IMG/VR virus record: IMGVR_UViG_3300025154_000005
Location: 1 to 64,000 of that record
DNA from: a virus
DNA: 64,000 nucleotides
Reading direction: 5' to 3' (one strand)
Below, piece by piece: positions 1 to 42,809 of this stretch. Under the pieces are notes generated by a model. That model did no database searches, was not told the DNA's origin, and was given only the letters and a program-made list of their open reading frames with translations. The stretch's first letter is position 1, and each line of letters begins with the position of its first letter. Made by a program: the position numbers and the translations under genes.

Positions 1-513
1 AGCATTAATTGCATCATTGATATCTTTGTATTTTCCAACATAGATTCTCTTTTTATTCAAAAATATCCAAACTTCCCATTTATTATCATAAAGATAAACT
101 CCTTTATATCCAGATGTATTATTTTTAGACACTCTTTTATTAACAGCTTGTTGAGAATCCGTGGCCCATCTACAATTAGAGCTTTCATAGTTACCATTGT
201 TGTTTATTCTATCTAAAGAATACTTACCTTTTGGTTTATTACCCATTTCTTTATAGAAAATCTTAAAGTCTTTCCATTCATCACATACAGTAATTCCTCT
301 ACCACCATGTGATTTATATCTATTACATTTAGGATTATTACATCTTTCTAACATATGAGCCCAAGCTCTATATTCTGGAGTTCCAAACATATTATGCCAC
401 AAATTTGATTTAAATAAAGGATCCCCAGTTCTTTTAAAATTGCTATAATGGGTAGAACAGTATCCTTTTGCCAAATGTTTTTTGTTGCAATTTAAGATAC
501 TACACGTTCTCAT
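1..513 (-). CDS. HNH homing endonuclease, partial (runs off left edge)
   Basis: Only the first ~171 codons lie in the window; the ATG is at 511-513. Residues 4-22 form a small Cys/His knuckle (CSILNC then CSTH). The HNH core follows: ERCNNP, HGGRGITVCDEW, SLDRINNNGNYE, NCRWAT. After it comes an AP2-like stretch (GYKGVYLYDNKWEVWI). This is the usual layout of phage HNH homing endonucleases with a DNA-binding tail. The start overlaps the end of a C-terminally short DNA ligase by 14 bp, which suggests an intron-borne ORF or an insertion that cut the ligase. Family assignment is secure; whether it sits in an intron cannot be decided without the sequence to the left. Confidence 0.88.
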   Translation of the reverse strand, partial: MRTCSILNCNKKHLAKGYCSTHYSNFKRTGDPLFKSNLWHNMFGTPEYRAWAHMLERCNNPKCNRYKSHGGRGITVCDEWKDFKIFYKEMGNKPKGKYSLDRINNNGNYESSNCRWATDSQQAVNKRVSKNNTSGYKGVYLYDNKWEVWIFLNKKRIYVGKYKDINDAINA

Positions 514-31133: not shown

Positions 31134-31192
31134 TAGTTTAATAATAAGATACGAACACTCCTATCAGGTGCATCAGCTTCATTATTAAACTA
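31134..31192. ncRNA. Structured element H, 59 nt
   Basis: Perfect 12-bp end helix TAGTTTAATAAT/ATTATTAAACTA, with an inner CCT-ATC-AGG hairpin. Confidence 0.45.
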
Positions 31193-31332: not shown

Positions 31333-31448
31333 AATCAGCGCATCTCTGATTAATTGATTTAAGTGTAATTATTAATAGTCCAATCTACTCTATTGAGATA
31401 TATTTCGACTGGACTATGTTATAGTATCATTATACTCCTATAATGATA
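31333..31448. ncRNA. Three consecutive hairpins (K, L, M)
   Basis: K: AATCAG-CGCATCT-CTGATT (31333-31351). L: AGTCCA/TGGACT (31377-31415). M: TATCATTAT-ACTCCT-ATAATGATA (31425-31448), a perfect 9-bp stem. Confidence 0.4.
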
Positions 31449-31574
31449 ATTATATTGTATTAATGCTATATTATTACAAATTTAAAGGGATTAGAGTACT
31501 CTTAAAAACATGAAATTACTAATATTAATTAACCCTAATTAACTAAAAACCTATTTTATCCCTAATCCCTTTTG

Positions 31575-31679
31575 AATGTCTAGTTGGGCTCGAACCAACG
31601 ACCTAATTCCGAACTTAGGATTTAGTATGTACATACTTATTCCGTCAAAAAATTTGCTCTACCTCTGAGCTATAGACAT
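31575..31679 (-). tRNA. tRNA gene with a ~33-nt insert in the anticodon loop
   Basis: 105 nt. All outer parts are canonical: acceptor ATGTCTA/TAGACAT, D arm GCTC-AGAGGTA-GAGC, variable loop AGGTC, T arm GTTGG-TTCGAGC-CCAAC; no CCA is encoded. The anticodon stem AATTT/GAATT (one G-U) closes a 40-nt loop instead of 7. The insert contains a hairpin centred on GTATGTACATAC (GGAATAAGTAT/ATACTAAATCC with two mismatches). Identity cannot be assigned until the junctions are known. Confidence 0.7.
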
Positions 31680-31692
31680 TACCATAAAATAA

Positions 31693-31780
31693 CCTGACAC
31701 TATTTCAACTTCACTAACTAACAATGGTGTGTTTAATTAAAAATGAGTAACTTCGAGATGTATTCAACACTAGTGTCAGG
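31693..31780. ncRNA. Structured element Q, 88 nt
   Basis: Perfect 10-bp end helix CCTGACACTA/TAGTGTCAGG filling the gap between the tRNA-like gene and the lipoprotein stop. May also end lipoprotein transcripts. Confidence 0.45.
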
Positions 31781-31782
31781 TA

Positions 31783-32161: not shown

Positions 32162-32242
32162 ACATCAACAGTATCAAATTACAGACACTCCAATCGTGTT
32201 ATCTGTAACAATTATTGAATACCAGGGTGATACTGTTGATGT
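32162..32242. ncRNA. Structured element O2, 81 nt, 15-bp perfect end helix
   Basis: Perfect 15-bp inverted repeat (32162-32176 with 32228-32242). Inside, the minus strand has TTACAG/CTGTAA, a 3-nt bulge and ACAC-GATTGGA-GTGT with a 7-nt loop. Confidence 0.55.
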
Positions 32243-38847: not shown

Positions 38848-39390
38848 ATGGCAGAAGCAAGTGTACTAGCTAATTATGAACCTCTAAATAACTTTTGGAA
38901 AATATTTCCATCATTTAGAGCACCTAAGATATACAATGATTTATATGAAGAAGATAAGTCTAAGGGTAAGAAACAATCCAGTGATATAATGTGGGCCCTG
39001 GCATTCATGTTTGATAAGACCGAATACAATCCTTACAAGACATTACAGATGTCAGATAAGATTGAGGTTATCAACGAAGATATCCTGGACAATGCTAAGT
39101 TTGACTGGGAGCCATATAGAAGATTAATAGTCTTTACAGAACTTATATTTATGTCAGAGATTGAGAGAACATATTATGCTTATCTTGAGAAGATGGAACA
39201 AAGGCGTAAACTTATTGAGAACTCTCCTTATAATTTAGCAACTGCAGAAGACTTAGATAAAATTATAAAGAGTACTGATAGCATACGTAAAGAGCTAGAT
39301 AATCTTAAGAAGATTGTTGATCAACAGGAAGCGGACGGTAGAACTAAAGGTGATATAATTGAATCAGCTAGAGAAAGAAAGTTATTTTAA
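38848..39390 (+). CDS. Putative small terminase subunit
   Basis: 180 aa, mostly helical with a C-terminal coiled coil (DLDKIIKSTDSIRKELDNLKKI). Its place immediately before TerL, with a 1-bp overlap, is that of TerS, and a similar protein precedes TerL in crAss-like phages. No sequence motif proves it. Confidence 0.45.
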   Translation: MAEASVLANYEPLNNFWKIFPSFRAPKIYNDLYEEDKSKGKKQSSDIMWALAFMFDKTEYNPYKTLQMSDKIEVINEDILDNAKFDWEPYRRLIVFTELIFMSEIERTYYAYLEKMEQRRKLIENSPYNLATAEDLDKIIKSTDSIRKELDNLKKIVDQQEADGRTKGDIIESARERKLF

Positions 39391-42300
39391 TGGAGTTCAT
39401 AAGAATAAACAATAGGAAGAATTTCCTACTCGAAGAAGTCCCTACAATTAATCCTCACTCACGTAAATATCTGAGTTGGTGGAAGGAACAAACTATGCGT
39501 TGTATTGAGGGATTCTGGTCAATAGATGATGAGAATGTGAAAGTAAATGTAATGTTAGAACATCCAGAATATCCAGATAAATCTTTTGCATGGAGATGGT
39601 TAACGCCAACAGCATATTTCTATTGTAACTATGGAACAATACTTGCTAATCCAATAGGAGCAACTTCCGGAGCTAAGATTCCTATGAGACCATCACTTGA
39701 TGATATTGAATGGGAGTTCGGGTATAACTGGATGGAAGCTAGAGGATTTAGTGGATTTGAAGATGATCCAGATTTCTCATGTAATATACATCTTCTTAAT
39801 AAGGATCTTACAGATAAGGATTTACTAAGAAAATGTGAAAATGAGAATGGAGAAATTATAGACTATCTACAAAAGAATTATTTTAATTCCAGTGGTAAAC
39901 GTAAACAGTTTGTTCCTTGCCGACAATATGTTAGACAATTATTTTCAAAGAATATGGGTCGACCAGTATATGCTAATCCGCCTGAAAACCTTATGATACT
40001 AGCCACCCGCGACGGAGGGAAAGCAATAGCTTGTGATTCAGGTAGTTACGTTTGGACAACTAATGGAAGACTTCAGCTAAAAGATATTAAGGTAAATGAT
40101 AAAATATATGGAGCTGATGGGGAACTTACAAATGTTACAGGAATTTTTCATCAAGATCCTACTAATCTATTTAGAGTTACTTTTATGGATGGTAGATACT
40201 TAGATGTGCATCCAGATCATTTATGGGAAGTTAAAAAATTTGAGAAAAAAGGATTAATTATAGATACAAAAACTATGTATGAAAAATTTATGTATCAAGG
40301 AAATGACAAAGGAGGAAATACATATATTTATTCTGTTAAACAAAATAAACCTATAAATTATCCAGAACAAGATTTACCAATTCATCCATATATTCTAGGA
40401 GCAATGTTAGGAGATGGTACTATGACAACAAATACTCCTAAAATAGCATGTAATGACCTTGATATATTAGATAAATTTAAAGAATTATTACCAGAATATA
40501 AATTTAATTATGATAAACACAGTAATAATAATTATAATATAGTTTGGAAGAAAAGAGCATGTATAAATAATAAAAGTCCTTTTGTTAATGCTTTACGTGA
40601 TAATAATTTAGTGGTAAAGGGAAATAATAAATATATTCCAGATATTTATAAAACATCTTCTGTTGAACAACGATTGGAATTAATAAAAGGATTGATGGAT
40701 ACAGATGGATCTGCAAATAAAGATGGGGCATGTGAATTTACAAATAAGAGTAAAAAATTAATATATGATTTAGCAGAAGTATTCAGAAGTTTAGGGATTA
40801 AATGTCAGATAGGAATTGATAATAGAACAGGATGCGAGGGTAATATAAAAGGACATAAATATATAAGAGGAATATATTATAGATTATATATAAATACAAC
40901 TATTCCTATTTTTCATTTAAAACGTAAATTAGATAAACAAATTAATAAGAAGTATAGATCAGCGCATGACTATACATCAATTATTAATATAGAGAAGTTA
41001 AGGAAAAAAAGGAAAAGTTTATGTATAACTATTGATAATTTAGATCATTGTTTTGTTACGGATGATTATATAGTTACACACAATTCATATTTAACAGCCA
41101 ATCAAGTAATAGCGCATGAATTAATATTTGATGGTATTCGTAGATATAGTCCTGATAATGTTAATAATCCACCATTAGCTGAAATTGTAGTTGGTGCTAG
41201 TATATCAGATAAGTCTAAAGATTTATTGAATAAGGTATCTCTTACAATGAATAATCTTAAAGGCGCGTGGAAGAAAGGTACAAATGAAGAAATTCCTTCA
41301 CCATTCTTTAAACACATGTCTGGTAGTATAACCCCTAATAAAGATTGGGAGCATAAGTATAAAAAGAAAATTGGATCGGATTGGAAAGATATAGGTACCG
41401 GTTCTAAAATTAAGCATAGAATATTTACTACTGAGAATCCTGAGGCTGCAGCCGGAGGTAGACCAGGTACTATTGTAATAGAGGAAGTTGGATTAGTAAG
41501 CAATATTCTTACTATTCACCAATCTAATGATGCCGCGCAAAACAACTCCGGAGAAAAATTTGGTAGTTCGGTATACATTGGTACTGCCGGTAATATGGAA
41601 AAGATTGTTGAAGCCGAAATGATATTCAATGATCCTAAAGGTTATAACTTCTTGGCATTCGAGAATCAAGAAGAGAATGACAGAGGTACGGAGATATGTT
41701 GGTTTATACCAGCTACTCATATGGCTAGGAAGTTTAAAGATGCTAATGGTAATACTATGGTTAAAGAAGCTACTGAACATTTCCTTAAACGTAGAGCTCT
41801 TAAAGAGAAGTCAGCATCTAAACGCGGTCTTGAAGGAGAAATGATGAACTATCCTTTGAAACCATCTGAAATGTTTCTTAATAAAACTAATAATGCTTTT
41901 CCAGTTGCTGATATCAAAGTAAGAATAAGAGATTTAATGAGTACGCTTAATGATGAACTTAAACTTACTCTTAAAGGTAGAATGAATCTTAGTGAAGATG
42001 GTGGAGTTAGCTTTGAGAAATTAAACATAATACCAATTCGCGAATTTCCTCTTAAGAAAGAGGATATTAATATTGAGGGTTGTGTAGAAATATTTGAACT
42101 TCCTATGAAAGATGGTGAAGGTAAAGTTCCATCAGGACTATATATTGCAGCACTTGACCCTGTGGATGATGATGGTAATGATGACAATAGTAGATCATTA
42201 CAATCAACATTTATAATGAATACTCTTACGGATAGAGTGGTTGCCGAATATTCAGGTAGAACTAAGTTTGCTAAAGAATATTATGAACAGGTTAGAAGAA

Positions 42301-42809
42301 TGCTCATATTCTATAATGCTACAATACTTTATGAGAATCAGAAGAAAGGATTCTTTACATACTTCGATAATAAGAATTGTTTATACTTATTGGAAGATAC
42401 TCCACCAGCTCTTAGAGATGTTGATATACAAAAAGGTACTATTATAGGAAATAAAGGTAAAGGTATATATGCAACGGATACTATCAACTATTGGGGTAGA
42501 CAACAACTATTACCTAACTATCTTGAATTACCGGCATACGGTAATAATGATATTATGAATCTTCAAACATTCAAATCTCTTGCAGGACTTAAGGAAATGA
42601 TATATTATAATGGTAAACTTAATACAGATAGAATATCATCATTAGGTTTATTAATGATTCATAGAGAATTAAAACTTAAGTTTAAAACAGATACTAAGAA
42701 GAAGATTCATAAGATAACATCTGATCCTTTCTTTAATAGACATCTAACCAAGGGTATGCGAAAATATGAAGAAGTTAGAAAACAATTAATGGAGAATGAC
42801 CAAACTTAA
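39390..42809 (+). CDS. terL: Terminase large subunit (TerL), intein-containing
   Basis: 1139 aa as encoded, 785 aa after removal of a 354-aa intein (residues 212-565). The ATPase Walker A is split after GGK: ATRDGGK (205-211) joins SYLTANQ after splicing, restoring RDGGKSYL. Walker B is TIVIEEVG. The nuclease domain starts at AALDPVDDDGNDD. TerL docks on the portal, pumps DNA into the prohead and cuts it. Length and layout fit crAss-like TerL proteins. Confidence 0.92.
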   Translation: MEFIRINNRKNFLLEEVPTINPHSRKYLSWWKEQTMRCIEGFWSIDDENVKVNVMLEHPEYPDKSFAWRWLTPTAYFYCNYGTILANPIGATSGAKIPMRPSLDDIEWEFGYNWMEARGFSGFEDDPDFSCNIHLLNKDLTDKDLLRKCENENGEIIDYLQKNYFNSSGKRKQFVPCRQYVRQLFSKNMGRPVYANPPENLMILATRDGGKAIACDSGSYVWTTNGRLQLKDIKVNDKIYGADGELTNVTGIFHQDPTNLFRVTFMDGRYLDVHPDHLWEVKKFEKKGLIIDTKTMYEKFMYQGNDKGGNTYIYSVKQNKPINYPEQDLPIHPYILGAMLGDGTMTTNTPKIACNDLDILDKFKELLPEYKFNYDKHSNNNYNIVWKKRACINNKSPFVNALRDNNLVVKGNNKYIPDIYKTSSVEQRLELIKGLMDTDGSANKDGACEFTNKSKKLIYDLAEVFRSLGIKCQIGIDNRTGCEGNIKGHKYIRGIYYRLYINTTIPIFHLKRKLDKQINKKYRSAHDYTSIINIEKLRKKRKSLCITIDNLDHCFVTDDYIVTHNSYLTANQVIAHELIFDGIRRYSPDNVNNPPLAEIVVGASISDKSKDLLNKVSLTMNNLKGAWKKGTNEEIPSPFFKHMSGSITPNKDWEHKYKKKIGSDWKDIGTGSKIKHRIFTTENPEAAAGGRPGTIVIEEVGLVSNILTIHQSNDAAQNNSGEKFGSSVYIGTAGNMEKIVEAEMIFNDPKGYNFLAFENQEENDRGTEICWFIPATHMARKFKDANGNTMVKEATEHFLKRRALKEKSASKRGLEGEMMNYPLKPSEMFLNKTNNAFPVADIKVRIRDLMSTLNDELKLTLKGRMNLSEDGGVSFEKLNIIPIREFPLKKEDINIEGCVEIFELPMKDGEGKVPSGLYIAALDPVDDDGNDDNSRSLQSTFIMNTLTDRVVAEYSGRTKFAKEYYEQVRRMLIFYNATILYENQKKGFFTYFDNKNCLYLLEDTPPALRDVDIQKGTIIGNKGKGIYATDTINYWGRQQLLPNYLELPAYGNNDIMNLQTFKSLAGLKEMIYYNGKLNTDRISSLGLLMIHRELKLKFKTDTKKKIHKITSDPFFNRHLTKGMRKYEEVRKQLMENDQT
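40023..41084 (+). mobile_element. Intein with LAGLIDADG homing endonuclease, inserted in TerL P-loop
   Basis: Codons 212-565 of TerL. The N-terminal splice block is AIACDSGSYV...TNGRLQLKDIKVNDKIYG, which begins with Ala rather than Cys/Ser if the exteins join as GGK-S. The C-terminal block ends CFVTDDYIVTHN followed by Ser +1, with penultimate His and Asn. Endonuclease motifs are YILGAMLGDGTM and LIKGLMDTDGS. The insertion point at the nucleotide-binding site means only spliced TerL can work. Confidence 0.9.

Follow-up and report, generated by a model that had tools for sequence, protein, structure and literature searches.

Does a phage tRNA gene whose anticodon arm carries some 33 extra nucleotides give rise to a decoding tRNA once the insert is removed, or does its RNA act, if at all, in some other way? 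The gene in question lies in a window of 64,000 nucleotides, the first part of IMG/VR record IMGVR_UViG_3300025154_000005. The complete record is 92,303 bp long and has a direct repeat at its ends, the final 100 bases being found again close to the beginning. By its major capsid protein, which comes nearest (34%) to those of crAss-like phages, the phage belongs to Crassvirales or is closely related to it; its host belongs to gut-type bacteria. With about even confidence, we read the gene as a singleton that encodes a non-decoding or decaying tRNA-like RNA.

That the locus belongs to the tRNA family is well supported. cmscan against Rfam matched the tRNA model RF00005 over its full length (1-71) at 31679-31575 on the minus strand, with 49.6 bits against a gathering cut-off of 29 bits (E 1.3e-7), and this is the sole tRNA match of the record at E<=0.001. 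ARAGORN in bacterial mode without introns called no tRNA at the locus; when introns were allowed, it called the gene at c[31574,31679]. The gene and its arms are as follows.

31575 to 31679, minus strand: tRNA-like gene, 105 nt, with U73 and no encoded CCA
31673 to 31679, minus strand: 5' strand of the acceptor stem, ATGTCTA, 7 of 7 pairs with 31576-31582 (pair probabilities 0.67-1.0)
31656 to 31670, minus strand: D arm, GCTC-AGAGGTA-GAGC (sequence and cmscan alignment)
31583 to 31599, minus strand: T arm, GTTGG-TTCGAGC-CCAAC (cmscan alignment)

All three stems are completely paired (acceptor 7/7, D 4/4, T 5/5), and T8, the GG of the D loop, the TTCGA of the T loop, the variable-loop AGGTC and U73 are all found. 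An earlier, sequence-only reading had described exactly these boundaries, canonical acceptor, D and T arms with variable AGGTC, and about 33 extra nucleotides in the anticodon arm that fold as a hairpin; each of these points was borne out.

The anticodon arm itself is less clear-cut, and its elements are listed here.

31610 to 31649, minus strand: 40-nt loop, TTTGACG plus 33 nt, closed by AATTT (31650-31654) and GAATT (31605-31609), the last pair being U.G
31624 to 31637, minus strand: perfect palindromic hairpin AGTAT-GTAC-ATACT within the insert (repeat search; pair probabilities 0.82-0.97)
31639 to 31644, minus strand: first copy of the direct repeat CGGAAT, an alternative 3' strand of the anticodon stem (sequence)
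31606 to 31611, minus strand: second copy of CGGAAT, 33 nt from the first (sequence)
31602 to 31619, minus strand: alternative hairpin CCTAA-GTTCGGAA-TTAGG, which uses the AGG of the variable loop (suboptimal folds, -22.0 kcal/mol)

The palindromic hairpin is lengthened by GGA/TCC over a 3x3 internal loop (pair probabilities 0.85-0.88). Because CGGAAT is present twice exactly 33 nt apart, the position of the insert is ambiguous: it can be placed in ten equal-score registers (cut i=8..17), which slide from the anticodon loop (37/38) through the 3' strand of the stem to the variable loop, and all ten yield the identical product AATTT-TTTGACG-GAATT-AGGTC. Folding showed the distal stem that closes the 40-nt loop to be unfavourable alone (-12.1 vs -14.3 kcal/mol without it), and it has two competitors in the free fold, namely the hairpin of the insert and the alternative CCTAA/TTAGG hairpin. 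A 5-bp anticodon stem on a 40-nt loop, as had been proposed, is thus present in its AATTT and GAATT strands; it is not favoured as a structure by itself, and it does not fix a unique place for the insert.

A proximal stem combined with a two-hairpin variable region has an energy equal to or better than that of the 40-nt-loop form, and this bears on the possibility that nothing is removed at all. The proximal CGGAAT would then close a 7-nt loop (UGA, Ser), and the extra nucleotides would form a giant variable region, an exaggerated class II tRNA. Long variable arms are typical of serine tRNAs, and the proximal ATTT/GAAT stem with both hairpins reaches -20.9 kcal/mol, compared with -12.1 to -18.8 kcal/mol for forms with the distal stem. 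However, such a tRNA would have C37 and a 27-43 mismatch, its U73 differs from the G73 of bacterial tRNA-Ser, and the proximal stem has a pairing probability of only 0.02-0.03, all of which make this structure improbable.

Whether excision would produce a decoding tRNA was judged by a 7-nt anticodon loop with U33 and a purine at position 37, with the insert excised or not. No such loop was found with or without excision: every register leaves C37-G38, the best one giving TTTGACG, and C37 occurs in just 2 of 507 ordinary viral tRNAs from the same loci as the insert-bearing tRNAs. By a splice score that was devised in the present analysis, as were the motif-defined classes, and whose figures describe rather than prove splicing, the best value of the gene was 6.0, against medians of 9-10 in the spliceable families. 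Against fully shuffled sequences this value gave p=0.24; when the loop alone was shuffled, 89% of the sequences equalled or beat it (p 0.89). Because excision restores no normal decoding loop, the gene is more probably non-decoding or decayed than neatly spliced; a decoding loop could conceivably be reached by an unusual register or base modification.

The product without the insert also bears on a simpler origin, a fresh and functionless pseudogene produced by slippage or by insertion with a 6-bp target duplication. Exact CGGAAT copies at both insert borders, in an otherwise intact tRNA, are what such an event would leave. Yet TTTGACG is non-canonical even with the insert taken out, so that one insertion event in a functional tRNA is not enough to account for the sequence, and we consider this origin quite unlikely.

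Among known intron types, group I introns are built around a conserved catalytic core that spans some 200 nt or more. An insert of 33 nt for which an Rfam scan matched no family, group I introns included, does not fit this type, in agreement with the sequence-only reading, and the candidate was dismissed. An archaeal- or eukaryal-type BHB intron was set aside as well, since its signal does not exceed chance. By the criterion of a 3-nt bulge, 4 bp and a 3-nt bulge at the junctions, the gene contains two formal matches, which are equally frequent in shuffled sequences, and no insert class showed archaeal-type geometry more often than its shuffled counterparts did. The gene shares a short anticodon-loop insert with archaeal BHB introns but belongs to a bacterial phage and has no BHB signal above shuffles.

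Searches for relatives of the locus gave little. blastn of the 2.1 kb region and of the gene alone against 50,697 phage records returned ordinary tRNA arms or nothing, and neither the exact insert nor the phage polymerase had a match in viral contigs. In 44 crAss-like records searched for tRNAs, one other long tRNA was found (L287, 115 nt), with no detected relation to the gene. Arm decay in homologues had been named earlier as the observation that would speak against an intron; the absence of a canonical register does favour a decayed or non-decoding RNA, and these searches found no homologue of the exact insert in which decay could be followed.

Short inserts as such are far from rare. The earlier view that they are confined to archaea and eukaryotes does not hold, given the introns already published for Lak megaphages and the insert-bearing tRNAs described here. 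IMG/VR viral contigs were scanned for a D arm, 46-76 nt and a T arm, which gave at least 120 loci, with good acceptor and T stems in 90 of the 121 matches listed; a second scan, for a variant of the D loop, found 83 loci. When all of these loci were scanned for structure, at least 197 distinct tRNAs with enlarged anticodon regions emerged, these counts being lower bounds that are biased to GGTAGAGC/GGTTCGA tRNAs. In three covarying families with inserts of about 30-50 nt, excision usually restores a canonical anticodon arm: among the members listed, best-splice scores were significant (p<=0.05) in 48/59 of class A, 6/6 of class C and 10/11 of class D. In a further set, class B, which is not one of these families, only 3/19 were significant.

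Class A inserts (about 40-50 nt) interrupt the anticodon stem on its 5' strand. Each is a hairpin with ACAGCAA after it, and the 3' exon holds an entire anticodon arm; a single phage may carry several on different tRNAs. In 30 sequences, the hairpin was 92.8% paired, with both sides changed in every pair, and covariation over the whole structure was 0.805 vs 0.242 +- 0.031 for shuffles. Class A also occurs in bacterial genome contigs, mostly of Lachnospiraceae and other Clostridia, where 73 pattern matches were reduced to 60 insert-bearing ones by dropping tandem-tRNA artefacts. No Rfam family matched class A inserts in the loci scanned. A class C insert is itself a tRNA-like minihelix within the anticodon loop, made of a T arm and an acceptor-like stem of 6-7 bp; covariation was 1.104 vs 0.304 for shuffles. 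One minihelix of this type is followed by TCCA and another by CCA, and we infer that such inserts could be cut out by RNase P and RNase Z. Class D has a GTTCCTAT core (covariation 0.501 vs 0.216 for shuffles). In other tRNA-like genes with perfect outer arms, a conserved domain (TCATGGTGAAGGACCAAAnGC...) takes the place of the anticodon arm, and the anticodon is not restorable. A permuted tmRNA (RF04321) was observed at L044:11505-11828, on a viral contig that also bears a class A tRNA.

Class A, bacterial genome contigs: L439, L443, L475, L405-L476
Class A, phages: L036, L050, L102, L117, L286
Class C: L008:4219-4335, L309:837-903, L311:928-996, L383:4423-4490, L059, L252, L346
tRNA-like genes with the conserved domain: L042, L054, L067, L080, L093, L097, L262 and others

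The gene studied here stands outside classes A, C and D, whose models score it at background. The class A model R1 gave no hit with filters off (known members score 21-63 bits), and the class D model R2 gave 7.9 bits (E 0.38) with the core absent. The class C model R3 gave nothing spanning the insert; its signal of only 4.3 bits, at 31584-31598, falls on the T arm of the gene itself, and no internal T arm, a class C trait, was reported inside the insert.

These families nevertheless lend weight to the idea that the 33 nt are a short intron, which a phage or host endonuclease would cut at the hairpin and the phage RNA ligase would join, to give a tRNA of about 72 nt with the loop TTTGACG or, in another register, TTTGTCG with the anticodon UGU. 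Restoration of anticodon arms in other phages, insert-family covariation far above shuffles, and the Lak phage introns all show that such inserts are a real class, and U73 and the possible UGU anticodon are both consistent with tRNA-Thr. An end-to-end alignment with the L008 tRNA-Thr(UGU) intron scored 33, a value reached by 4/200 shuffled queries; however, it was chosen among 197 inserts. Kinship with that intron was dropped, as its T arm, acceptor-like helix and 3' ACTCCAATAA are absent from the insert and other family C members show no likeness and could not be aligned. A GAATAAG-centred pattern in tRNA context had convincing matches only in two more contigs, both carrying the L008 intron. 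Since no register offers a purine 37 and the insert has none of the cores conserved in families A, C and D, we regard splicing of this kind as possible, though on the doubtful side. A narrower version appears doubtful: the 33 nt would be a minimal intron from one more family of short tRNA introns in Bacteroidota phages, cut out by a hairpin-directed endonuclease, with the phage ligase joining the ends to leave a tRNA with an unusual C37 loop.

The RNA ligase on which splicing would depend is encoded by the phage (record positions 88043-89158) as a 371-aa protein with RNA_ligase and OB domains (PF09414, 63.5 bits; PF21189, 97.4 bits); TIGR02306 scored 126 bits, under its cut-off of 151. PF09414 was found in just 4/21 crAss-like relatives, several of which are fragments. 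RtcB and T4 Rnl1 were both absent from the 92.3-kb phage genome, and other records with short tRNA inserts had T4 RNA ligase 1 in 17/29 and RtcB in 4. A ligase of its own thus leaves a splicing route open to the phage, but this evidence is permissive only, because large phages often carry such ligases anyway. As a separate observation, an ATP-dependent DNA ligase is found in two ORFs across the record ends (500-1153 of the window; L289:9722-10147 at the end of the record), about 0.5 kb apart, a split that is possibly an intron.

Against this background, we return to the non-decoding or decaying tRNA-like RNA. In this reading, insertion of the 33-nt hairpin would have broken up the anticodon arm and left, or used, the CGGAAT repeat, while the acceptor, D and T arms recognised by tRNA-processing enzymes stayed intact. 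The gene and the neighbouring stem-loop RNAs would most likely be transcribed together, and the RNase P and RNase Z of the host would trim the tRNA-like RNA at its ends like any other tRNA. No decoding tRNA would form; the product may be a decaying tRNA, or an RNA kept for its ends as a processing signal or decoy. Non-decoding tRNA-like RNAs recur in viral contigs, as shown by the class B set (19 sequences listed; median score 2.3), which is likewise without a restorable anticodon. Also in favour, the gene is the lone tRNA match of its genome, compared with 12 ordinary tRNAs in the array of L125, the nearest relative by exonuclease. On the other side, the acceptor, D and T arms are flawless and no invariant base is lost, which speaks against prolonged decay, and the RNA ligase is just what an excised intron would need.

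The surroundings also favour the non-decoding reading, as the gene sits in a tandem series of stem-loop elements. This minus-strand stretch of about 1.1 kb contains several elements with closing stems of 9-15 bp, several with z below -4.

31692 to 31781, minus strand: stem-loop element closed by 11 bp, 12 nt upstream of the tRNA (z -2.5)
31484 to 31572, minus strand: stem-loop element closed by 11 bp, with its start 2 nt downstream of the tRNA, after U73 (z -2.1)
31134 to 31192, 31370 to 31420 and 32162 to 32242, minus strand: other stem-loop elements of the series (closing stems of 11-15 bp over all five elements listed here)

Because the downstream element begins 2 nt past U73, it would be released when the end of the tRNA is trimmed. 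A structured RNA directly 3' of a tRNA is also seen with theta ribozymes that adjoin phage tRNAs; unlike these, the present locus has no Rfam ribozyme at the gathering threshold, and anticodon inserts are not mentioned for theta ribozymes (PMC10879173).

Other phage systems show partial likeness. In Lak megaphages, introns were predicted in tRNA genes in 2019 and described as enigmatic, with an unknown removal route (Devoto et al. 2019, PMC6784885); they too are inserts in phage tRNAs, and one of them may itself encode a tRNA (PMC6784885). These introns, however, interrupt tRNAs that have assigned anticodons, and they are conserved from one genome to another, whereas in the present gene no anticodon results and no homologue was found. 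The tRNA-Pseudo genes of the cultured vibriophage KVP40 (AY283928) resemble the gene in length (113-124 nt) and in having anticodon-arm inserts of about 40-50 nt; tRNA-Pseudo-3 fits the class A model (25.9 bits), which the present gene does not, and short-insert tRNAs have thus been annotated as pseudo-tRNAs. Tandem tRNA arrays of crAss-like phages (for example DAC15 and L125) belong to the same phage order and lie near the exonuclease and structural module, but nearly all their tRNAs are of normal length.

Short tRNA inserts are widespread in bacterial viruses and also occur in some bacterial genomes, they form at least three families with conserved, covarying structures, and the insert families are a more interesting and more testable outcome than this gene alone. 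If they are spliced, bacteria and phages would own a tRNA-splicing route beyond group I introns, and the predicted tRNA sets of large phages would be incomplete. Within the present phage, GC skew changes sign near 32 kb, at the tRNA-like gene, where early and late modules diverge. Further along the window, adjoining the portal region, a 1139-aa ORF (39390-42809) that is probably the terminase contains an intein-like segment with a LAGLIDADG domain.
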